DNA from: a virus
Virus record (IMG/VR): IMGVR_UViG_3300027770_000140
Coordinates: 1 to 35,551 of that record
Strand: one strand, 5' to 3'
Length of the DNA stretch: 35,551 bases
Below, in pieces: positions 8,828 through 23,360 of this stretch (the stretch's first letter is position 1; each line of letters starts with the position of its first letter). Below the pieces are notes generated by a model. That model saw only the letters and a program-made list of their open reading frames with translations. It made no database searches and was not told the DNA's origin. The translations under genes and the position numbers were made by a program.

Positions 8828-9325
8828 TTAGGTTTCCAGGAGCAGCGCAGTGCGCTTTTTATCTCGCTCCTTGCCATTTACTTCGTGAAAATCCAGCAGA
8901 TCGTCAACGTACTGTTCTGCTTCGTCATCCCCGTAGAATTCACGCATGAAGTGCGCCTGGTACATAAAGGCCTCTAACTCCGAGGGCATGTCTAGATAGT
9001 CGGTGCCGGGAGGAGGGATCATGTCATAAGGATCGTCGCACACCTGCTGCAGCCAGTGACAAAGCTCATGGACTATGTAGTGCATTTCCTTGGAGAAGTC
9101 GCCGTCCTCTAGGAATTTCTTGTTGATAAATATGACCTTGTCTTTGGTCTTGGCGCTAACTGGAATATCTGCAAAGCGAATATCGACATCGTGGAGGCGT
9201 TCTAGTGGAACGCTGTACCTGCCGAACATACCTTTGACGGCTTCGGAGTCAGCCAAGAAGTCGAGTATTTTCTTCAGCAGAGAGCTGACTGCATTACTCT
9301 GTGCGCGTCGCAAGAACAGCTTCAT
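8828..9325 (-). CDS. HExxH zinc metallopeptidase-like protein
   Basis: The protein has 165 residues. The motif YIVHELCHWLQQ (His86-Glu87-x2-His90) is the HExxH zinc site of a metallopeptidase. A downstream PSELEAF (Glu116/Glu118) could give the third ligand, as in gluzincin-like small peptidases. The preceding region (DKVIFINKKFLEDGDFSKE) resembles the strand-helix that leads to the active site in SprT/ImmA-like folds. Two adjacent ATGs (9328, 9325) are possible; the second has the better spacing from GAGG. Its start overlaps the 3' end of the upstream 69-residue gene by 32 bp, so the two are likely translated together. Substrate is unknown; virion maturation, host targeting or a structural relic are all possible. 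Confidence 0.7.
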   Translation of the reverse strand: MKLFLRRAQSNAVSSLLKKILDFLADSEAVKGMFGRYSVPLERLHDVDIRFADIPVSAKTKDKVIFINKKFLEDGDFSKEMHYIVHELCHWLQQVCDDPYDMIPPPGTDYLDMPSELEAFMYQAHFMREFYGDDEAEQYVDDLLDFHEVNGKERDKKRTALLLET

Positions 9326-9503
9326 CATTCCTCTTTCTAATGTGATCTTTTATTTTCTGCAGATCTTCTGCCAGGCAGCAAGATTCCCCTACCTCTTGGT
9401 CCCCTGAGACTTCGAACTCACCCAGGGCTGCAATCTGCTCACGTAGCTTTGCCAACCTGTCTCTGCGCGACTTGCGCGGATTTTCGACTTCATTATCGGC
9501 CAT
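9294..9503 (-). CDS. small hypothetical protein
   Basis: The protein has 69 residues (MADNEVENPRKSRRDRLAKL...). The ATG at 9503 has GAGG at 7-base spacing; an upstream in-frame TTG lacks a better site. It is charged and predicted helical, with a Cys-Cys pair near the middle (ESCCLAEDL). The 3' end overlaps the metallopeptidase start. No family is recognised. The small size and charge suggest a chaperone or accessory protein for the neighbouring gene, but that is only an inference from position. Confidence 0.6.
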   Translation of the reverse strand: MADNEVENPRKSRRDRLAKLREQIAALGEFEVSGDQEVGESCCLAEDLQKIKDHIRKRNDEAVLATRTE

Positions 9504-9516
9504 AAACAATCCTCGC

Positions 9517-9993
9517 TTATCGCTTTCGGCCTAAGCCCAGGGCGATTTTCTCAAGAGCTAGTCTAACGGATTCTACCATGGCATTGTAATCTTCGGTCAC
9601 CGACTTCAGGTCTTCGATGCGTTTATCAGCCATCTGGGTTATGACCTGGATGTGCGCAGAATGCAGGTCTGTTATCTTTGTAGTGGCTTCCCGCAGCTGC
9701 TCGCCGAGTTCATCTTCGGTTTCTGCCATGCGCTTGTCGTGCGCATCGCGCATGCCTTTGATCTCCTCGGCATGTGCTAGGCGCATTTGCTTTAGCTCTT
9801 CAGTGTGCGACTCGCGCACTGACTTGAGCTCTATGGCGTGTTCCCGTTGCGCAGCCTCTAGCGCAGTTTCCTGCGCCTCTTTTTTAGAGAAAAGCTTAAG
9901 TAGCAAGTAGCCTGCCAGAACCCAGCCGCCGGCCAGAATTCCGTTCTCTACAGAGAGCAAGCTTGTTACTATTGCACTAGGATCCAGGCTCAT
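9517..9993 (-). CDS. membrane-anchored coiled-coil protein
   Basis: The protein has 158 residues from the ATG at 9993, which overlaps the previous stop as TAATG, implying coupled translation. Residues about 15-35 form a single hydrophobic helix (ILAGGWVLAGYLLLKLF). The rest is a long charged coiled coil (about 38-150) with heptad repeats (ELKSVRESHTEELKQMRLAH). The topology resembles inner-membrane spanins or pinholin-associated proteins, but no lysis gene is seen beside it and no family is recognised. A longer TTG start at 10002 is less likely. Confidence 0.65.
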   Translation of the reverse strand: MSLDPSAIVTSLLSVENGILAGGWVLAGYLLLKLFSKKEAQETALEAAQREHAIELKSVRESHTEELKQMRLAHAEEIKGMRDAHDKRMAETEDELGEQLREATTKITDLHSAHIQVITQMADKRIEDLKSVTEDYNAMVESVRLALEKIALGLGRKR

Positions 9994-10262
9994 TAGGTAC
10001 AAACTCCAACGCCAGTTATGCTACCGCTACCTGCGACCACTATCTTCTTTACTAAAATATTAATAAACTGATGAGTGCCAACGGCCAGGTCCAAAGGGCT
10101 CGCCCCTGCAAGCGCAGCGGAGCCGTCAAAGTCTACGGTAACGGTTGCTCCAGTCGGCACGTCAATGATAACATTAACGATTGGCCTCGTAAAAACCACA
10201 GTGTCCCCTGCAGATGCAGAGAAGTGCTGGTGGTTTAGGTCTCCTGTTTGTATAATTGCCAT
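9993..10262 (-). CDS. small beta-rich probable virion protein
   Basis: The protein has 89 residues. The ATG is preceded by GGAG at 7-base spacing. The sequence is almost all alternating beta residues and small turns (TVVFTRPIVNVIIDVP, GATVTVDFDGSAALAG, INILVKKIVVAGSGSI), consistent with a small beta-sandwich such as a head decoration or neck protein. It lies between the probable connector protein upstream and a membrane coiled-coil gene, in a tight operon. No family is recognised. Confidence 0.6.
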   Translation of the reverse strand: MAIIQTGDLNHQHFSASAGDTVVFTRPIVNVIIDVPTGATVTVDFDGSAALAGASPLDLAVGTHQFINILVKKIVVAGSGSITGVGVCT

Positions 10263-10271
10263 TTTTAACTC

Positions 10272-11159
10272 CTAGAACTGACCGGTATAACGAATATTGC
10301 GCAGGCGCCTAAATGTCGGATGAGCGACCGCAAGCTGGCCGGCACCCATGCCGAGCGGAGCAGGACGGTGATTTCGCTTTGCCTCTTTTAGCTTAGCTCG
10401 ATACTCGGAATACAGGGCTGACATTATGTTTGATAGAGCAGAGCTTACGGATGCAGGCGTCACAGAGATACCGTCATCTGTTACAACCCATTCACGACCC
10501 ACTTCGGCTGGGATAAGACTGGGTAGTGCTTTTAGGTATGCGCCTTCTACAATAAGATCCGAAAATATCGTATAGATCGATGGATCTGCAGTCGTATAGG
10601 ACGTAAAGGTCGGCGTCGCATTAAACTCGCTGAGAGCAAGCCATATGAACGATTCCATGTCATCTATAGATAGGATGTCGCAGCGTGAGCCATCCGGCTT
10701 GCGCTGGGTATTCCTGAGGCGGAAGCGTAGCTTTTGCATCAAGATGTTGATGCCGTAGATCTCCTGCTGCGTAAAGTTGATCCTGGGTACATCCCCGATC
10801 TTCATTTCGGGGGTAGTCACAGTGTCGCCTGTAGCCGTGATCGTACCCTGGCTAAGCACATTGAAGTCAAAATTTGCTATGTTCGCAAAGCCGTCCAAGG
10901 TGGCTGACCAAGTGTCGCGCCACACACCATCGACATAACCATCTGGAACAGTATACTGCAGCCTGTAGCGCCCCTCGGCTAGGCGGCGAACGCCATAACT
11001 AGACGCAGGATGGACGATTAAACCATCACTATTGGCAATCTCTATCTGTGGAAACTGGTCGGTATCGCGAGCCAGGCCGGCAGAGTCGCGAAACTGGACC
11101 TCCAGCCGAATCACTCCGCCCGGAGGGATGGCTGCTCTCTTGTAAAAGATTTGGCTCAA
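10272..11159 (-). CDS. probable head-tail connector/neck structural protein
   Basis: The protein has 295 residues. The start codon is TTG at 11159, with a GGTG ribosome site; there is no ATG in frame before residue 120. Residues 1-105 look like an Ig-like beta domain (AIPPGGVIRLEVQFRDSAG, RYRLQYTVPDGYVDGVW). The middle and C-terminus are helical with 'SIDDMESFIWLALSEFNATP' and a basic C-terminal tail. A beta domain before a helical adaptor-like body suits a phage neck or connector protein, but this is an inference. The gene is followed directly by the 89-residue protein. Confidence 0.6.
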   Translation of the reverse strand: MSQIFYKRAAIPPGGVIRLEVQFRDSAGLARDTDQFPQIEIANSDGLIVHPASSYGVRRLAEGRYRLQYTVPDGYVDGVWRDTWSATLDGFANIANFDFNVLSQGTITATGDTVTTPEMKIGDVPRINFTQQEIYGINILMQKLRFRLRNTQRKPDGSRCDILSIDDMESFIWLALSEFNATPTFTSYTTADPSIYTIFSDLIVEGAYLKALPSLIPAEVGREWVVTDDGISVTPASVSSALSNIMSALYSEYRAKLKEAKRNHRPAPLGMGAGQLAVAHPTFRRLRNIRYTGQF

Positions 11160-11669: not shown

Positions 11670-11933
11670 TTACTCAGGATCTTCCTGGAGGCTGTATTCG
11701 GGAATAGAGCCATCAGGCAAGCTGACGATGCGAATCTTGATAGCCATCTTGCCACGATGGTTTTCCCCGAGTTCAAACTCCACACGAGTACCCGGAGAAA
11801 CCGTCTTATAGCCCGGCATTAGCAGGTACTTGTAGTAAAAGAATATATCGGTCGGACTCGGCCCATCGGTTCTGATGAAGCCAAAGCTACCCTGCCTATC
11901 CTTGAACTTGACAACTTCTCCGGTGTACTTCAT
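11670..11933 (-). CDS. cold-shock domain protein
   Basis: The protein has 87 residues and fits the single OB-fold cold-shock family. RNP1-like GSFGFI is at 15-20 and RNP2-like DIFFYY at 29-34, followed by PGTRVEFELGENHRGKMAIKIRIV. These motifs bind single-stranded RNA or DNA. The C-terminus is about 15 residues longer than minimal Csp proteins and acidic (EYSLQEDPE). It sits inside a virion gene operon, with its stop one base before the next ATG, so it is probably made late. A role as an RNA chaperone or transcription antiterminator for late messages is an inference. Confidence 0.88.
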   Translation of the reverse strand: MKYTGEVVKFKDRQGSFGFIRTDGPSPTDIFFYYKYLLMPGYKTVSPGTRVEFELGENHRGKMAIKIRIVSLPDGSIPEYSLQEDPE

Positions 11934-11961: not shown

Positions 11962-12249
11962 TCAACCAAGCTCTGGTGAGGCGGAGGTCGCAGCGCTGCC
12001 GCCAGAGGTCTCTTCATGGTGGGCCTGGAGTTCGGTTGCTAGGTCAACCATTGCCTTGACCTGGTGCGAAAGGCCAACGAAGCGCTGCTCCAGCTTCTGA
12101 TGCTCTTCGCGCAGTCGCTGCAGTGCGGCAGAAGCCTCATCAAGCTGCTGCTTGCCGTTTACCAAGCGCGCTGCAACGCTGTTCTCGGCCACGTCCCGAT
12201 CAGCACGCTCAAGAAATCGCTCAACTAGTTTTTTGGTATTGTCTTCCAT
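11962..12249 (-). CDS. small coiled-coil protein
   Basis: The protein has 95 residues. The ATG has a strong purine-rich ribosome site (AGAGGAAG). Nearly all of residues 5-75 is predicted coiled coil (LVERFLERADRDVAEN, LQRLREEHQKLEQRFVGL), with a low-complexity Ser/Ala tail. No family is recognised. It lies between the HNH gene and the cold-shock gene. An 8-bp inverted repeat, CGTCACTG/CAGTGACG (12276-12283 and 12309-12316), lies just upstream in the 133-bp gap; that gap has no other gene. Confidence 0.6.
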   Translation of the reverse strand: MEDNTKKLVERFLERADRDVAENSVAARLVNGKQQLDEASAALQRLREEHQKLEQRFVGLSHQVKAMVDLATELQAHHEETSGGSAATSASPELG

Positions 12250-12382: not shown

Positions 12383-12670
12383 TCACCTGATTTCGACCTT
12401 GCCATCGGCCATGAATACAATGCCTTCGCGTATGGTGTGGGCTTCGCCGCTCCTGTGCCAGAAAAATTTGCGGCCTGCGGAAGTCGCAAACCAGCCTTCG
12501 CAGATTATGGCAGATTTGTGTATCTGCTGATGGCAGCTTGCGCAAACCGTGACCAGGTTTTCATTTGAGTTGGTGCACCTGGGGTCACACCTGGGAATTA
12601 TATGATGTACATGCAGGGCGGCTTTCTCTGCCATCCCGCAGATCTCACATTGTGAAGATTTTTTCTTCAT
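12383..12670 (-). CDS. HNH endonuclease (small, free-standing)
   Basis: The protein has 95 residues. It has the HNH/zinc motif in order: Cys8-x2-Cys11, HVHHIIPR (about 20-27), NENLVTVCASCHQQIH (Asn, then Cys43-x2-Cys46-His and His51). This is the beta-beta-alpha metal nuclease core with four structural cysteines. A short C-terminal extension with aromatic residues follows (GWFATSAGRKFFWHRSGEAH). The ATG has GGAG at good spacing and overlaps the last 26 bp of the patatin-like gene. Small phage HNH proteins act as homing endonucleases or as packaging-associated nicking enzymes; the location away from terminase favours a mobile element. Confidence 0.88.
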   Translation of the reverse strand: MKKKSSQCEICGMAEKAALHVHHIIPRCDPRCTNSNENLVTVCASCHQQIHKSAIICEGWFATSAGRKFFWHRSGEAHTIREGIVFMADGKVEIR

Positions 12671-13451
12671 TCTGCTCCAACCACTCGGCCGTAGCCCGAT
12701 AGCCCTCTTCGATCATGAAATCTACTTCGGATTCATTTACATTGAAATTCAGTGGGCTGAAGCGCGTCGGAATGCATACCTTGTAGATGTGCTCCTGGTG
12801 CCTAAGCGCCCTCTCGCCATCTATAACTGACTCAAAAAGGGCAACAAGGTAATTCTTCAGCGCAGTTATACCTGTTACAATGCCAGAGTAAGGAGTAGTT
12901 TTAAAGGCCAGGACAGGGAGCCCATTGGAGAACACATCGGATGGCATATTTTTCATCCAGCCGCCATCCACATAGAGGTCGCCATCTATGATAACTGGCT
13001 CAAATATAAATGGCAGCGATATAGAAGCCCTTATAGCCTTTGCTGTGCTGAATCCTGGGTCCGAATTAGAGCTGAATATCCTGACCTTTCGAGCAGTTAT
13101 ATTTGAGGCAGTGATGTAGAGAGGGATCCTGGATTCTCCTAATGTTTTATGAAGATACTGGTTGAACTTATTCTCTATTTTGTTGCCGCGAACAAGACCC
13201 CACCTGCACAAGATAGAGCGCAGCGAAAAATCAAAAAGCTTGCTCTTGACGGGCAGGGTTGTCTTGACGAGACCAGCAATGTCGTTCTTAGGATCAAGGC
13301 CGGCGGAAATCGCAGCGGCAATTATGGCGCCACCCGATGTTCCACTTATCTCTGCTATCTCGATGCCTCTTTCTCTTAGGCATATTAGAGCGCCAACAAA
13401 GGCAGGGTAAAGTTGACCGGAGCCAGCAAGTGCCACGTTAACTCTCTTCAT
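12645..13451 (-). CDS. patatin-like phospholipase / acyl hydrolase
   Basis: The protein has 268 residues from the ATG at 13451 (GAGG upstream; an in-frame GTG at 13460 is the longer alternative). Patatin signatures are complete. A glycine-rich oxyanion loop GSGQLYPAFVGAL is at about 10-22. The nucleophile elbow GTSGG has Ser39. The conserved 'A.RAS.S.P..F' block (KAIRASISLPFIFEPV) follows, then DGG with Asp162. The Ser-Asp dyad predicts lipid acyl hydrolysis. There is no signal peptide or membrane helix, so it would act in the cytoplasm or in the virion. It follows a tail fibre gene and overlaps the HNH gene. Roles in host membrane damage, lysis or interference with lipid signalling are all possible. 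Confidence 0.9.
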   Translation of the reverse strand: MKRVNVALAGSGQLYPAFVGALICLRERGIEIAEISGTSGGAIIAAAISAGLDPKNDIAGLVKTTLPVKSKLFDFSLRSILCRWGLVRGNKIENKFNQYLHKTLGESRIPLYITASNITARKVRIFSSNSDPGFSTAKAIRASISLPFIFEPVIIDGDLYVDGGWMKNMPSDVFSNGLPVLAFKTTPYSGIVTGITALKNYLVALFESVIDGERALRHQEHIYKVCIPTRFSPLNFNVNESEVDFMIEEGYRATAEWLEQNEEKIFTM

Positions 13452-13505: not shown

Positions 13506-13527
13506 AAACCGCTAGCTGTAGCGGTTT
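13506..13527. terminator. hairpin between fibre and patatin genes
   Basis: AAACCGCTA, loop GCTG, TAGCGGTTT. It lies just after the stop of the fibre gene at 13539 and upstream of the patatin-like gene. On the minus transcript only a short U-run follows (GGTTTATATC), so termination would be weak; the stronger T-run is on the plus side, where no gene ends. It may be an attenuator or RNA-processing site. Confidence 0.4.
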
Positions 13528-13538
13528 TAATTCTTTTT

Positions 13539-14369
13539 TTACATTATGTACCAGTTCGCTCCGTTGGATACGACTGTCATCGACTCCCACTGAAGCAGCA
13601 GCGAAATAACGCTCTCGCCATCTAAAGTCTCGCCAGGCGCGGCGCGAACAAAAAGATCATTGTCGCCGGGAGAAATTCGCTTTATATTGAACAGCAGGCC
13701 GGCCTGACCGGCAGCAGACGGCAAATCAAGGAATAAAGGCTGTGCAGAGGCATCTCCGAATACAATTCTATCTGATAGCCTTATCTCGTAGTTAGTAGTC
13801 GTCGTCACGACGGCCAATCTGGATAGCGAGTCTACGTATTCCTTGGTCGCCGCGTCCTGGGGGCTGACTGGGCTTTGAAGATTTGTTATCAGGTAGCCAT
13901 CAGCATTAACATTCCCTGACATCGGCCTGGAGCCATCAGTCATGAAGAAGCCGAGATCGTCAAACGACAGGTCATCTATGGCAGCAGACAGGGTGGAGTC
14001 TACATAATTTTTGGTAGCTGCATCTGCAAGTGCAGCGGGCTCTCGCAGACCTGTTACGGAATACCCATCCATCGGCAGGTTTGCACGCATCGGGCGGGAG
14101 CCATCTATTCTTAGAAAGGCCTGGTCATCGAGCGACACGCTGGCTAGAACGCTGGCAGCTGCATCATCGACGTACTGCTTATTGGCGATCTGCGTCGAAG
14201 CTATTGGAGATGGGAAGTTTATATTATTTATCTGATCCACTGAGATCAGCGAGGAGGTTATGAACTCGCCTACCCTAACCAGCATCTCATCATTCTTTAG
14301 TGCAGTAAGCTCTAGAAGTTCTTCGCTGTCATTGGGCTTAAGCTTTAGGGCAAACGGGTAAAATGTCAT
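13539..14369 (-). CDS. short tail fibre protein with shared N- and C-terminal modules
   Basis: The protein has 276 residues from the ATG at 14369 (AGGGG upstream). The longer open frame adds 19 residues that do not align with the related fibre. The N-terminus MTFYPFALKLKPNDSEELLEL parallels MTFRPYARKVRLGDTETFL of the 803-residue fibre. The middle has three 'DAATK.YVDS' type repeats (ADAATKNYVDSTL, QDAATKEYVDSL) with 'GSRPM.(A/G)N...DGY', a common phage fibre repeat. The last 90 residues (LDLPSAAGQAGLLFNIKRI, then QWESMTVVSNGANWYIM) match the caps of the fibres at 16544 and 19042. It follows two tandem terminators, so it has its own transcription start or depends on read-through. Confidence 0.85.
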   Translation of the reverse strand: MTFYPFALKLKPNDSEELLELTALKNDEMLVRVGEFITSSLISVDQINNINFPSPIASTQIANKQYVDDAAASVLASVSLDDQAFLRIDGSRPMRANLPMDGYSVTGLREPAALADAATKNYVDSTLSAAIDDLSFDDLGFFMTDGSRPMSGNVNADGYLITNLQSPVSPQDAATKEYVDSLSRLAVVTTTTNYEIRLSDRIVFGDASAQPLFLDLPSAAGQAGLLFNIKRISPGDNDLFVRAAPGETLDGESVISLLLQWESMTVVSNGANWYIM

Positions 14370-14480
14370 GCAGAAACCCCTGTTTCTTGATAGAAGCGTC
14401 GCGCAGCGCGAAGCGGACGAGCACAAACTTCTTGATTATTGAATCATTTAACTGCTTGTTACATCTAGTTGTTTGATAAA

Positions 14481-16543: not shown

Positions 16544-18955
16544 TCAGACGATTAGCCACTTGGTGCCATTCGAAACAAGCGTGACCGCTTCGTACTGCAG
16601 GAAGAGGTTCACTGAAGCACCGCCATCAATCTGCTCGCCGCTGGCGGCAGCGACGGTATCCGCATCATTTGGCGAGCCGACGGAGTTATCGATCTTCTTG
16701 ACGATAATCTTCTTGCCGGAGTTACCAACCGCAGTCGGCAGAGTAACGACCGTGCTACCGGAGCCGTTGATGAGCACGAGGTCATCAGCGGCAGTGATCG
16801 CGCCGCTCGCAGCGACTTCGCGAACCGCCAGGAGACGGGTGGCGATATCACCAGCAATGCGAGCCGAAATCTCACTGTTCAGGTTGTTCGTGAGAGTGAC
16901 ATCGGCAGCAGCGCGGACCGAAGCTTCGGTACCGAGGCTAGTCGTGAGAGCGGCGTCACCGGCAATGCGAGCCGAGACTTCGCTGTCGATGTTGCCCTGG
17001 AGGACGACATCGGCAGCTGCGCGGACAGAGGCCTCTTGATCAACGTCGTTGGCGTTGCTATCAGCATAACCTTCCAGATCATCCAGGATAGCCTGGAGAG
17101 CTGCGTCGGCAGCTACACGGGCCGAGGTCTCGCCACCAAGGCTGGTGCTAAGGGCGGCATCGCCGGCAGCACGAGCGGATTCCTCGGTATCGATCTCGAC
17201 CTGTAGGGCCGCATCAGCGGCAACGCGGGCAGAGGTCTCTCCACCAAGGCTGGTGCTGAGAGCGGCATCACCGGCAGCGCGAGCGGATTCCTCGGTATCG
17301 ATCTCGACCTGCAGGGCCGCATCAGCGGCAACGCGGGCAGAGGTCTCAAGGCCGAGGCTGGTCGTGAGCGCGGCATCGCCAGCAGCACGAGCGGACTCTT
17401 CGGTATCAATCTCAACCTGGAGAGCGGCGTCAGCGGCAGCACGGGCCGAGATCTCGAGGCCGAGGGCTGAGCTTGCGCCAGTTGAGAGGTTATTGACTAC
17501 GTCAAGGAGGTAGCCGTCCGCGTCCTGGAACGCGGAGACAATCTCGCTGAGCGAGTCGAGTGACTCAGGGGTAACGTTCGAGAGCAGGTTGTTGATCTGG
17601 CCCTGCAGGTTGCTGTCGCCAGCAATACGGGACGAGGCCTCGCTATCGACATTGCCCTGGAGTACGCCATCGGCAGCTGCGCGAGCCGAGGTCTCAAGGC
17701 CGAGGCTGGTCGCGAGAGCAGCATCGCCGGCAGCACGGGCAGACTCTTCAGTATCAATCTCAACCTGCATGGCCGCATCAGCGGCAATACGGGAAGAGTT
17801 CTCGCCGACAAGGGCGGTCGTGAGAACGGCGTCGTAGGCAGCGCGAGCCGAGGTCTCAAGGCCGAGGCTGGTCGTGAGAGCGGCATCGCCAGCGGCACGG
17901 GCAGACTCCTCGGTATCAATCTCAACCTGCATGGCCGCATCAGCGGCAATGCGGGCAGAGTTCTCGCCGACAAGGGCGGTCGTGAGAACTGCGTCATAGG
18001 CAGCGCGAGCCGAGGTCTCAAGGCCGAGGCTGGTCGTGAGAGCGGCATCGCCGGCAGCACGAGCGGACTCTTCGGTGTCGATCTCAACCTGCATGGCCGC
18101 ATCGGCGGCAATACGGGCAGAGTTCTCGCCGACAAGGGCGGTCGCGAGAGCGGCATCGCCGGCAGCACGGGCAGACTCTTCAGTATCAATCTCAACCTGC
18201 AGGGCCGCATCAGCGGCAATACGGGCAGAGGTCTCATCGCCAAGGCTGGTCGCGAGAGCGGCATCGCCAGCGGCGCGGGCTGACTCTTCAGCATCGATCT
18301 CGATCTGGAGAGCGGCATCAGCGGCAACGCGGGCAGAAGTCTCGAGGCCGAGGGCTGAGCTTGCGCCGGTTGAGAGGTTATTGACTACGTCAAGGAGGTA
18401 ACCATCGGCATCCTGGAATGCTGAGACGATCTCGCTGAGGGAGTCAAGTGACTCGGGGGTAACGTTCGAGAGCAGGCTGTTGATCTGGCCCTGCAGGTTG
18501 CTGTCGCCAGCAACGCGGGACGAGGCTTCGCTGTCAAGGTTCGTCTGTACAGCGGCATCGCCAGCAGCGCGGGACGAGGCTTCGCTGCCGAGGCTGGTCG
18601 TGAGAGCTGCATCGCCAGCAGCGCGGGATGAGACTTCGCTGCCGAGACTGGTGCTGAGAGCGGCATCGCCAGCAACGCGGGATGAGGCCTCTGACGTCAG
18701 ATTGGCCTGAACGCCGGCGTCACCAGCAATGCGGGATGAAACCTCGGAAGCCATTTCGCCGTCGACGTAGCCCTTCGTGGCCGCGTCATTATTGTTTACG
18801 GGCGTGGCAAGACCGAGCTTGTCCTGGCCGATGAGCTCAGCTACGATCTCGGTGCCTTTGCGGCTGAGGACGTAACCGTCTGGAAGATTTGAGATATCAA
18901 GGAAGGTCTCGGTATCGCCGAGCCTGACCTTACGGGCATATGGTCTAAAAGTCAT
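16544..18955 (-). CDS. long tail fibre of about thirty 18-residue coiled-coil repeats
   Basis: The protein has 803 residues from the ATG at 18955 with an AGGAG site. N-terminal module MTFRPYARKVRLGDTETFLDI, then 'NNNDAATKGYVDGEM'. Residues about 70-700 consist of about 30 copies of an 18-residue unit such as 'ETSARIAADAALQVEIDT' and 'EESARAAGDAALATSLGD', which should form a trimeric helical shaft. Two longer inserts of about 45 residues (NLLSNVTPESLDSLSEIV, AFQDADGYLLDVVNNLSTG) interrupt it at identical contexts 296 residues apart. The last 100 residues form the beta cap (VVTLPTAVGNSGKKIIVKKI, QYEAVTLVSNGTKWLIV). This is a host-binding fibre; receptor unknown. A terminator follows it. Confidence 0.9.
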   Translation of the reverse strand: MTFRPYARKVRLGDTETFLDISNLPDGYVLSRKGTEIVAELIGQDKLGLATPVNNNDAATKGYVDGEMASEVSSRIAGDAGVQANLTSEASSRVAGDAALSTSLGSEVSSRAAGDAALTTSLGSEASSRAAGDAAVQTNLDSEASSRVAGDSNLQGQINSLLSNVTPESLDSLSEIVSAFQDADGYLLDVVNNLSTGASSALGLETSARVAADAALQIEIDAEESARAAGDAALATSLGDETSARIAADAALQVEIDTEESARAAGDAALATALVGENSARIAADAAMQVEIDTEESARAAGDAALTTSLGLETSARAAYDAVLTTALVGENSARIAADAAMQVEIDTEESARAAGDAALTTSLGLETSARAAYDAVLTTALVGENSSRIAADAAMQVEIDTEESARAAGDAALATSLGLETSARAAADGVLQGNVDSEASSRIAGDSNLQGQINNLLSNVTPESLDSLSEIVSAFQDADGYLLDVVNNLSTGASSALGLEISARAAADAALQVEIDTEESARAAGDAALTTSLGLETSARVAADAALQVEIDTEESARAAGDAALSTSLGGETSARVAADAALQVEIDTEESARAAGDAALSTSLGGETSARVAADAALQAILDDLEGYADSNANDVDQEASVRAAADVVLQGNIDSEVSARIAGDAALTTSLGTEASVRAAADVTLTNNLNSEISARIAGDIATRLLAVREVAASGAITAADDLVLINGSGSTVVTLPTAVGNSGKKIIVKKIDNSVGSPNDADTVAAASGEQIDGGASVNLFLQYEAVTLVSNGTKWLIV
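16830..18755 (-). repeat. tandem 54-bp repeats plus 888-bp-spaced direct duplication inside fibre gene
   Basis: The 54-bp units encode the 18-residue fibre repeat and keep high base identity, for example GCATCGCCGGCAGC recurs many times. A larger near-identical segment of about 150 bp starts near 17467 and again near 18355 (offset 888 bp, an exact multiple of three). This layout invites slippage and recombination that changes fibre length without breaking the frame. It also creates long open frames on the other strands, which are not genes. Confidence 0.9.
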
Positions 18956-20170: not shown

Positions 20171-20536
20171 CCCCTTCTTGCGCATAGGGCAGATCATCAG
20201 CGGAACGCAATTGCGTTCCGCTCTCTTTAGAGAGAGGTCAAGAGTAGCCAGCGCCCCATAATTGCTGGCACCGCTTACGGCCCAGTCCATGAATTCGGCG
20301 CCACCAACATAGGGACTGGCTGCATTTATCTCAAATGAAATAAAGCCCGCAAGATTTCCTATTATAATGCACTCCTCGTCAAAATCGCGGTCGGCAATTG
20401 CGGCCACGCTAGAAGCGAGATCGATCAGGTTCGGCTCGTAAGCGCTATTCTTAAAAAAACACTGAAGAGCGTACACTACGACTTCTGCCCGATGCTCCAC
20501 AGAGCCCCAACGCCAGGCAGCACTGGAATGTTTCAT
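20159..20536 (-). CDS. hypothetical protein downstream of DHFR
   Basis: The protein has 125 residues. The ATG overlaps the DHFR stop as ATGA, and GAGGA precedes it, so it is translated with DHFR. It has no recognised family; the middle reads as mixed alpha/beta (DFDEECIIIGNLAGFISFEI, EFMDWAVSGASNYGALATLD) and the end is basic with two cysteines (MICPMRKKGSGL is the C-terminus). Position suggests a link to nucleotide metabolism, but nothing in the sequence proves that. Its 3' end overlaps the convergent plus-strand gene and carries a 24-bp palindrome. Confidence 0.6.
   Translation of the reverse strand: MKHSSAAWRWGSVEHRAEVVVYALQCFFKNSAYEPNLIDLASSVAAIADRDFDEECIIIGNLAGFISFEINAASPYVGGAEFMDWAVSGASNYGALATLDLSLKRAERNCVPLMICPMRKKGSGL
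20199..20222. repeat. 24-bp perfect palindrome in the convergent 3' region
   Basis: AGCGGAACGCAA followed at once by TTGCGTTCCGCT, a perfect two-fold palindrome with no loop spacer. It lies within the last 20 codons of the 125-residue gene and 29 bp after the stop of the plus-strand gene. It could serve as a transcription barrier for the convergent messages or a protein-binding site; no T-run supports a classical terminator. Confidence 0.6.
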
Positions 20537-20985
20537 CGTGGATTCCTCGCATATCTAACAATGTCATATTCGTCAGTTGACCGTAATGTTTCCGTGGCAT
20601 GAAACATGTGTTGAAAACAGGGGAAGCGCTTATCGCCGTCAACTTCTTGCTTGACGTGGGTAATCAACAGCTCATCACAATAGAATAGAAACTGCGCATA
20701 CACCTCAGAACCACCACACAGGAAAACAAAACCCGAATCCGAGTGCGCCTCTGATAAGCTGCCGATCTCCATGGGTCCGGATGGCGATCTCGTCAGAATA
20801 TATGTTTTTCTGCCAGGAAGGGGACGACCTATAGAGTCGTAGGTAGCGCGCCCCATGACGAGAGCGTGGCCCAAGGTCACAGACTTAAACCAGGCCAGGT
20901 CTTCTGGTAAATGCCACGGCAGGGAGTTGCCGCGACCAATTACGCTGTTCTCTGATACTGCGGCTATTCCAATCAGCTTGCTCAT
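20533..20985 (-). CDS. folA: dihydrofolate reductase
   Basis: The protein has 150 residues, close to the usual bacterial length of about 160. It has the expected motifs in order: IGIAAVSENSVIGRGNSLPWHLPEDLAWFK (substrate and active-site region; Glu28 is the catalytic acid), VMGRATYDSIGRPLPGRKTYILTR (NADPH region) and FLCGGSEVYAQFL (Gly-Gly cofactor loop). It reduces dihydrofolate, which thymidylate synthase produces, with NADPH. The ATG overlaps the thyA stop by four bases (ATGA), as in other phage thymidylate/DHFR pairs, so the two are coupled. In T4-like phages the equivalent gene is called frd. Confidence 0.95.
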   Translation of the reverse strand: MSKLIGIAAVSENSVIGRGNSLPWHLPEDLAWFKSVTLGHALVMGRATYDSIGRPLPGRKTYILTRSPSGPMEIGSLSEAHSDSGFVFLCGGSEVYAQFLFYCDELLITHVKQEVDGDKRFPCFQHMFHATETLRSTDEYDIVRYARNPR

Positions 20986-21839
20986 ATCGCCATCTCAACC
21001 TTTGGTAAATCGGGATGGTGTGAGTATCCCACCATCTCTACGTCAGAGTACTGCAGAGCAAGCAAGTCATCTAGAGTAGACAGCTGCCTGTTTATGCGAA
21101 ATTCTGGCAGCGGCAGCGGATCTCGAGTGACTTGGATCCTTGCGTTATCCAGCTGGTTTTTATACAGGTGTACGTCAGAGCCTTGGAACACAAGCCGCCC
21201 GGGACGATACCCGGCCAAGTTGGCAAGCGCATGTAGCAGGAAGCCATATCCTGCGATATTTGTCGGGTTTCCTAAATAGAAATCATTAGACCGCATCTGG
21301 AAAGACAGATTCAGTCTGCCTCCAGCGATCTGAACTGCCCAGCTTACATGGCAGGGCGGCAGAGCTGCCTCTGTCAAGACCTGCTGCGGATTCCAGTAAC
21401 TAACGAAATGGCGGCGGCTGGATGGATTTGTTTTTATTCCAGAGACAATTGCGGCCAGCTGGTCGTAGCCGGAGCCAGCGTGGCTGCCATTGAAATTACG
21501 TAGCTGCCAGCTGTAATTCTTTCCTGCGTCACCTTCTAGCAGGTGAGCAAGTCCTTTTGCATCCAGGAATTCGCGAGTAGTGTTGCCCCTCCAGATATTT
21601 ATTTTTTTCTGCTCAAGGATCTTTGAGTCTGTTTGTCCTCTGAGAAACCACATCATCTCTTCAAATGCAATGCGGAATGCAATGCGACGAGTGGTCAGAA
21701 GGGGGAAACCATCGTCCATATCGAATACCATTTGAGCACCAAAGATGCCCCTGGTTCCAATCCCTGTGCGATCATCTTCAATATCAAACCCTTCATCAAG
21801 AATCTGGCGCATTATTTTTAGATAGGAAGCTTCAGTCAT
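20982..21839 (-). CDS. thyA: thymidylate synthase
   Basis: The protein has 285 residues from the ATG at 21839; the frame is open further upstream but that part overlaps another gene. It shows DDRTGIGTR (Arg24 phosphate contact), PPSRR-type 'NPSSRRHFVSYWNP' (Arg142-Arg143), LPPCH (Cys163 nucleophile), RSNDFYLGNPTNIAGYGFLL (Asn194, which selects dUMP rather than dCMP), DVHLYKNQ (His/Tyr) and PKVEMAI at the end. It converts dUMP and methylene-tetrahydrofolate to dTMP. Divergence from cellular ThyA is visible: 'YSWQLRNF' replaces the usual 'YG.QWR.W'. The start overlaps the 118-residue gene by ATGA and the end overlaps DHFR by ATGA. Confidence 0.95.
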   Translation of the reverse strand: MTEASYLKIMRQILDEGFDIEDDRTGIGTRGIFGAQMVFDMDDGFPLLTTRRIAFRIAFEEMMWFLRGQTDSKILEQKKINIWRGNTTREFLDAKGLAHLLEGDAGKNYSWQLRNFNGSHAGSGYDQLAAIVSGIKTNPSSRRHFVSYWNPQQVLTEAALPPCHVSWAVQIAGGRLNLSFQMRSNDFYLGNPTNIAGYGFLLHALANLAGYRPGRLVFQGSDVHLYKNQLDNARIQVTRDPLPLPEFRINRQLSTLDDLLALQYSDVEMVGYSHHPDLPKVEMAI

Positions 21840-22192
21840 CTGTCGACCTCTAGTTTCAGAGTTACCTCTCCGTGGTGCCTTATTGCATGGATAACGATGC
21901 CTGCGTTTCCGACAATAGCCTCCCATATCTCCTGGGTTCTGTCGTGCGACACCCTGGAAAACTCAAAGGTGCCCCATTCTGAGCAGCTTCCCGAGCCCGT
22001 ATGACACAGAAAAAGGGTGGCGCTCATTTTGCCATTGGGCAGGAAACCGAGAATATCCACCTGGCGATTATTAAACCGATATGTGCCTGGGTGCACAATG
22101 GTATCGTACTCAGGTGGCTGTGCCAAGTATCCATCCGCAGGGCGCAATTCCGCTACGCAGCTCTTGCGAAACAACAAGTCAAATAAACCCAC
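21836..22192 (-). CDS. hypothetical protein at head of thyA operon
   Basis: The protein has 118 residues with a GTG start at 22192, supported by AGGTGA just upstream. Middle segments are beta-rich (TYRFNNRQVDILGFLPNG, MSATLFLCHTGSGSC). It ends VTLKLEVDR and its stop overlaps the thyA ATG (ATGA). No family is recognised. It is the first gene after the capsid terminator. A promoter must lie in 22193-22303, but none is clear; an 18-residue frame (MTFFVKVLDQQPAERSHR) ends on its ribosome site. Confidence 0.6.
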   Translation of the reverse strand: MGLFDLLFRKSCVAELRPADGYLAQPPEYDTIVHPGTYRFNNRQVDILGFLPNGKMSATLFLCHTGSGSCSEWGTFEFSRVSHDRTQEIWEAIVGNAGIVIHAIRHHGEVTLKLEVDR

Positions 22193-22355: not shown

Positions 22356-23360
22356 TCAGGACTTGCGGCCGACGGCGACGCCGCGGGCGTTGACGATGCC
22401 GATACCGATGGTCTCGAATACCGTCCAGCCGAGGCTGAGGCGATCCATCTTGTCGTTTGGCACGACTTCGACGTTCTGGCGGATTGGCATGACGCCGACC
22501 ATGTCGGGCTCAGCGCAACCGAAGACGCTGCCGAAAGGAACAAGCTTGCTGACGATGATGTCGGCGGTGAAGAGCTTGGCGTAGAGGCCGGTCTGGAGGA
22601 TCTCGCGGTGCGTGACGGGGTCGACTTCAGCAGCCGAGGTACCACCCTGTGACGTCCAGAGCAGGAGGTCCTGGAAGTCGCGGATGTTCATGAAGAACTT
22701 GCTGGTGAGCAGGTCCCACTGATCAACTTCTGACTTGATCTCAACCATGTCAGCGCGCGAGATGCGGGCGCCGAGAACCTGAGCGGTGTTCTCACCACCG
22801 AGGGCGGCGTCGCTGGCGAAGTCGAGGGCGGCGAAGAAGTTCGCGTCCTCAGTGGCAGCGATCTCCTGCTTGGCCTTTTGGACCGTACGCTCGATGACGT
22901 TAAAGCGGCGCTGACGGGCCTCGCGGATGCGGACGAGTGGGTGGCAGGCGATGTCGAACTCTGGAACGAATACACGGTCGCCACGGACGGGGCTCTCTGG
23001 AACGGCGCCGTTCGCCGAAATTACGAAAGCCGCAACGTCGATGTCGCGCTCATAGAGGGGGAGGACGCCGGTGGCGAGCTCGTCAACAACGAGGCCGCGG
23101 CGAGCAACGCCCGAGTAATCAAGGTTGCGGCGGATTGGGAGCGCCATGGCCTGAGCAAGAGCGACCTTGCCGCCCTGGTCGAGGATGGCTTGGCGAACGA
23201 GCTCGTCGCGCTGTGACTCGGTGGTCGAAGGACGGCCAGCGGCAACAGCGTTGGAGGGCATACCCTCCTCGAGGACCTTGGCGATGCGAACGAGACTCTT
23301 CAGCGCGTCGCGGGTGGTAAGACCACCGAGCTCGCCTGAATTATCAAAAAGATTTGACAT
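22356..23360 (-). CDS. major capsid protein
   Basis: The protein has 334 residues; the ATG has CGGAGA upstream. The central block 'ALPIRRNLDYSGVARRGLVV', then DELATGVLPLYERDIDVAAF and 'VFVPEFDIACHPLVRIREAR', 'RRFNVIERTVQKAKQEI' and 'ATEDANFFAALDFA' follows the order found in one group of HK97-fold phage major capsid proteins. The length is also right. The N-terminal 70 residues are helical and could be the scaffold-interacting region; no cleavage site can be assigned. It lies downstream of the head accessory protein and of the protease/scaffold gene, and it has its own upstream gap and a strong terminator, as expected for the most abundant virion protein. Confidence 0.9.
   Translation of the reverse strand: MSNLFDNSGELGGLTTRDALKSLVRIAKVLEEGMPSNAVAAGRPSTTESQRDELVRQAILDQGGKVALAQAMALPIRRNLDYSGVARRGLVVDELATGVLPLYERDIDVAAFVISANGAVPESPVRGDRVFVPEFDIACHPLVRIREARQRRFNVIERTVQKAKQEIAATEDANFFAALDFASDAALGGENTAQVLGARISRADMVEIKSEVDQWDLLTSKFFMNIRDFQDLLLWTSQGGTSAAEVDPVTHREILQTGLYAKLFTADIIVSKLVPFGSVFGCAEPDMVGVMPIRQNVEVVPNDKMDRLSLGWTVFETIGIGIVNARGVAVGRKS

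Follow-up and report, generated by a model that had tools for sequence, protein, structure and literature searches.

A patatin-like protein at the tail-fibre end of a large-phage structural region, and its candidacy as a hydrolase of envelope lipids

Why would a very large tailed phage carry an intact patatin-like gene at the end of its tail-fibre genes, and what might the product cut? The question arises from the window, by which we mean the whole 35,551-nucleotide stretch analysed here (IMG/VR record IMGVR_UViG_3300027770_000140), itself a fragment of a larger, uncultured virus. Judged by its capsid protein, the window comes from a jumbo-phage lineage that is distant kin of Bacillus phage G, and capsid relatives occur on contigs of up to 472 kb. 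Among isolate phages, none was close to the window by DNA, and protein matches were distant and partial only.

22356..23360, minus strand: major capsid protein (HK97 fold), 44% identical to the major head protein of Bacillus phage G

The same capsid protein is 100% identical to that of one relative, L001 (2036-3040), at a dS of 0.10, where neighbouring proteins differ by ~10%; identity with such low synonymous divergence suggests recent exchange or strong constraint. Capsid genes of three further relatives look interrupted (L039, 4258-6661; L032, 9950-11158; L030), the interruption in L039 holding a 277-aa ORF that is possibly an intron or homing element. Between the capsid and fibre genes of the window, thymidylate synthase and dihydrofolate reductase genes adjoin at 20533-21926, a pair kept in close relatives.

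The gene at issue lies downstream of these, on the capsid strand:

12645..13451, minus strand: patatin-like (PNPLA) acyl hydrolase, 268 amino acids, with Ser39, Asp162 and AGSGQLYP at residues 9-16

Its reading frame is uninterrupted from an ATG at 13451 to a stop at 12647-12645 (268 codons), with a second possible start at an in-frame GTG 9 bp upstream of that ATG; a plus-strand reading of the same coordinates is interrupted by stops and was rejected. The Pfam Patatin model (PF01734) matches residues 7-173 of the product at 84.3 bits (E 1.6e-23), above its curated cut-off of 27.7 bits, and a simple hydropathy scan of the protein found no transmembrane segment. The nucleophile motif GxSxG is present as GTSGG, around Ser39, and the catalytic aspartate motif DG[AG] as DGG, at Asp162. 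An earlier note on this DNA, made from its letters alone, had reported an intact patatin-like hydrolase with a Ser39/Asp162 dyad, and both its coordinates and its residue numbering proved exact. Its further statement that all patatin signatures are present holds for Ser39, Asp162, G10 and G12 but goes too far for the glycine-rich motif as a whole, which forms the oxyanion hole in the patatin family (PMC12871566). Here the motif reads L-A-G-S-G-Q-L-Y-P and does not match the strict GGGx[KR]G: G10 and G12 are retained, the middle Gly is replaced by Ser, the Lys/Arg by Leu and the last Gly by Tyr. The five proteins of the clade to which the window patatin belongs all have the form GSG[QC]LYP, which occurs in no other phage relative; the clade's oxyanion motif is degenerate. 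At the fifth motif position, several bacterial patatins found here likewise have Leu, Phe or Tyr rather than Lys/Arg; the strict motif is thus not universal in the family, and its alteration need not mean lost activity.

An AlphaFold2 model based on an alignment of the phage family (mean pLDDT 81.5, pTM 0.83) predicts that the window protein has the patatin fold. Its top match among solved structures is the patatin domain of PlpD from Pseudomonas aeruginosa (PDB 5FYA/5FQU; Z 28.8, rmsd 2.7 and 25% identity over 240 residues), which is also the closest solved structure by sequence and shares the Ser/Asp dyad. After PlpD the model matches CapE, CapV, patatin-17 (Pat17) and VipD, and the best-matching predicted viral structures are mostly giant-virus patatins. 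PlpD differs, however, in two respects: it carries POTRA domains and an outer-membrane barrel (PMC5724010), whereas the phage protein consists of the patatin domain alone, and its glycine-rich motif, unlike that of the window protein, contains an Arg.

The search for homologues in related phages that the earlier note had proposed found relatives on more than 80 contigs besides the window, the smallest of a few kb and the largest of 480 kb, with many of them very large; for the canonical subfamily, 159 stretches of IMG/VR were recruited and 80 loci kept. Across 87 phage patatins the catalytic residues are conserved wherever they align (Ser in 86/86, Asp in 87/87), and within the window's clade both Ser39 and Asp162 are invariant across ~40% identity. 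Compared with its closest relative (91% amino acid identity) the gene has a dN of 0.05 against a dS of 0.47-0.59 (dN/dS ~0.1), and is therefore under purifying selection; decay in relatives, which the earlier note had set against its own reading, was looked for and is not seen, the catalytic residues being kept. The main jumbo-phage subfamily (L064 and relatives) resembles the window protein in occupying the same kind of site with a conserved dyad, in many cases with an HNH/cold-shock block downstream as in the window, but carries GGGx[KR]G and is only ~20% identical to it.

Around the patatin, the window holds the following features:

16544..18955, minus strand: repetitive tail-fibre-type protein, 803 amino acids
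14593..16452, minus strand: adhesin/fibre-like protein, 619 amino acids, with a weak Pfam Disaggr_assoc match
13539..14426, minus strand: tail-fibre-type protein directly upstream of the patatin, matching phrog_1640 (tail protein, E 2e-14)
13506..13527, minus strand: 9-bp inverted repeat between this fibre gene and the patatin, a weak terminator-like match
12383..12670, minus strand: HNH endonuclease-type protein, 95 amino acids (HNH match, E 5e-9)
11962..12249, minus strand: predicted coiled-coil protein, 95 amino acids, of the conserved downstream block
11670..11933, minus strand: cold-shock domain protein of the same block (PF00313, E 3e-11)
10272..11159, minus strand: conserved 295-aa protein, the patatin-independent anchor of the site census

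The fibre-type gene next to the patatin encodes DAATKxYVDS repeats and probably starts at an internal ATG at 14366; the terminator-like match that follows it is, overall, no more than chance would give, and the 619-aa adhesin/fibre-like gene is absent from the closest patatin-bearing relative. Downstream, the first 26 bp of the HNH gene lie within the end of the patatin gene. The HNH gene is kept at this site even in relatives that have no patatin, and was accordingly rejected as a necessary partner. The earlier note had placed the patatin between tail fibres and small virion proteins: the upstream half of that description stands, whereas the next three genes downstream are the HNH, coiled-coil and cold-shock genes, with virion-type genes resuming only beyond them. 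The small coiled-coil proteins of relatives gave an alignment too divergent for a scan. The block also contains a 166-aa protein (8828-9328) with a HELCH motif, metallopeptidase-like by eye and lacking a Pfam match, which is kept there across relatives.

Two gene orders recur. One runs from fibre genes through the patatin, a small protein, the HNH, coiled-coil and cold-shock genes to virion-type genes; in the other, a head-tail adaptor and a tail sheath (phrog_23, E 1.7e-52) come shortly after the patatin. The preceding gene lies on the same strand in 82/85 cases and upstream neighbours are mostly fibre-type genes. An upstream cluster, c10, ends no more than 64 bp from the patatin start, or overlaps it, in 19/24 cases; structure comparison gave no clear match for its fold, so its 'fibre' label is inferred from position. 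Four loci (L065, L087, L091, L102) have tandem or near-tandem patatin copies at the site. When contigs were recruited by the capsid protein alone (n=26), 11 carried a single patatin gene, which in every case shared the strand of the capsid gene, lay 8-30 kb downstream of it and usually came after tail-fibre genes. Were position random, the chance probability of this placement on four distinct contigs of 190-450 kb would be ~8e-6, a rough value only, since the 31-kb span was picked with the data in view and the phages are related by descent. A census through the downstream anchor gene, independent of the patatin, counted 21 loci with the patatin and 13 without (19 and 11 once near-copies were removed); with about one third of related contigs lacking it, the gene is common but dispensable.

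What, then, does the protein do? With family, intact catalytic dyad, purifying selection and conserved gene position established here, attack on membrane or envelope lipids is the most plausible role, and our leading account, held tentatively and at somewhat less than even chances, is that of a soluble patatin-fold Ser-Asp lipid acyl hydrolase belonging to the tail-fibre, or host-attack, module. The gene sits at the tail-fibre end of the structural region; it would most likely be expressed late, together with the fibre genes, and its product would hydrolyse acyl esters of host envelope lipids. Relatives mostly carry the patatin at a comparable site, so that a part in the attack on bacterial envelopes is probable. 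The protein may be associated with the tail or fibres and act at the cell surface, which we favour over a purely intracellular role because the neighbours that stay constant across relatives are for the most part the upstream fibre genes, whereas the downstream genes differ between lineages. Against this account, none of the genes that immediately follow the patatin in the window encodes a known virion protein.

The main rival, possible though on balance unlikely, would make the patatin a late intracellular helper of lysis: acting from the cytoplasm as infection ends, it would break down the phospholipids of the inner membrane, along the lines proposed for the patatin cassette of Wolbachia phage WO (PMC9203015). 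The analogy is one of gene placement: in WO the patatin adjoins the tail module, and here a fibre gene lies directly upstream in the window, while sheath and adaptor genes lie downstream in the second group of relatives. In favour of this rival, no signal peptide is obvious, and a 161-aa protein 2.6 kb downstream (9517-10002) shows, by eye, a single hydrophobic stretch near its N-terminus ahead of a charged tail that resembles a coiled coil; this holin-like candidate does not adjoin the patatin, however, and falls below the hydropathy threshold, and in a crude scan a holin-like small membrane protein was downstream in only ~8/74 loci. The WO cassette is described with adjacent holin-like and ankyrin genes and without a canonical endolysin (PMC9203015); among the flanking genes scanned in the window there was no ankyrin-repeat match, and G004, the closest relative of nearly full size, encodes an Amidase_2 protein (a candidate endolysin) 71 kb from its patatin, so that lysis would not depend on the patatin alone. 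A search for GH108 gave no signal, its controls being equally silent. The lysis role is thus weakened by the amidase of G004 and by the want of a generally conserved adjacent holin-like gene.

Less probable again is that the patatin is metabolic cargo, a host-derived enzyme that would recycle fatty acids or remodel membranes during a long jumbo-phage infection. The megaphage Mar_Mega_1, likewise a very large tailed phage with a patatin, offers the precedent: in the excerpt of its report consulted, the authors present the first patatin in a phage genome and describe the patatin-like phospholipase just as an auxiliary metabolic gene, saying nothing there of its place in the genome (PMC9723777). 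The same spot in several relatives of the window phage holds sugar-nucleotide enzymes and GIY-YIG endonucleases, so the site may be a general cargo slot, and aminotransferase V, epimerases and oxidoreductases also occur in it; yet the patatin's conserved location is at the fibre block, not among metabolic genes, and lipid-pathway genes are absent beside it. In L070, L079, L080, L083 and L128, the patatin is preceded not by fibre genes but by genes for sugar-nucleotide enzymes, epimerase- and oxidoreductase-like by eye.

The altered motif raises the further, improbable prospect that GSGQLYP has abolished hydrolysis and that the protein binds lipid or another ligand. The middle and last Gly are replaced together in 5/5 clade members and in no other phage members, and Gly-to-Ala changes in the oxyanion glycines of the related FplA are reported to have given insoluble protein (PMC5724010); a pseudoenzyme would sit poorly, though, with a dyad invariant at ~40% identity and with bacterial members in which Leu, Phe or Tyr replaces the Lys/Arg. 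The earlier note's suggestion of a counter-defence role, against CBASS or another patatin- or lipid-based defence, found nothing in its favour and is very improbable: CapV and CapE share the fold (Z 23-26) and PADLOC phospholipase-effector models match weakly (E 2.6e-11), but any patatin would be expected to give such matches to fellow family members, PlpD is the closer fold, the CBASS phospholipase model (NCBIfam CBASS_lipase) scores 30.2 bits against a cut-off of 200, and no nucleotide-signal gene was recognised nearby.

How the window's clade acquired its patatin can be approached through phylogeny. A quick maximum-likelihood tree places the clade among bacterial patatins, apart from the main phage clade (support 99). 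Forcing all phage members into a single clade costs 31.7 log units, yet the AU test does not reject it (p 0.165); the two phage lineages may thus have arisen independently, an attractive reading that the quick tree prefers but that is unproven. A first scan for a bacterial donor found none, and a second gave relatives of at most ~35% identity (47% over a 63-residue segment) from scattered phyla, so no recent donor is identified. Acinetobacter 'phage' records with a patatin look like bacterial chromosome by gene content and were set aside. It is conceivable, if doubtful, that large phages reserve a site for a patatin where the tail-fibre array ends, and that a GGGxKG and a GSGxLYP lineage filled it separately, because a tail-borne phospholipase would help to breach the envelope.

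Phage patatins as such are already known, from Mar_Mega_1 (PMC9723777) and phage WO (PMC9203015). The earlier note's remark that they are not widely characterised is nonetheless fair: PHROGs has no family matching the window patatin, few isolate phages hold one, and the gene is nearly absent from isolate-based libraries. Within the literature searched, what appears to be new is how widely they occur, and how constant their position is, in large phages, together with the GSGxLYP form; on tail-borne phospholipases nothing beyond a loosely related review was found. Lipid-cutting enzymes are not an accepted component of the tailed-phage attack; a patatin that is widespread and keeps a conserved position beside tail-fibre and tail genes would be a candidate for an envelope-lipid step in jumbo-phage infection or lysis, and the window's clade is a naturally occurring patatin subfamily whose oxyanion motif is altered.
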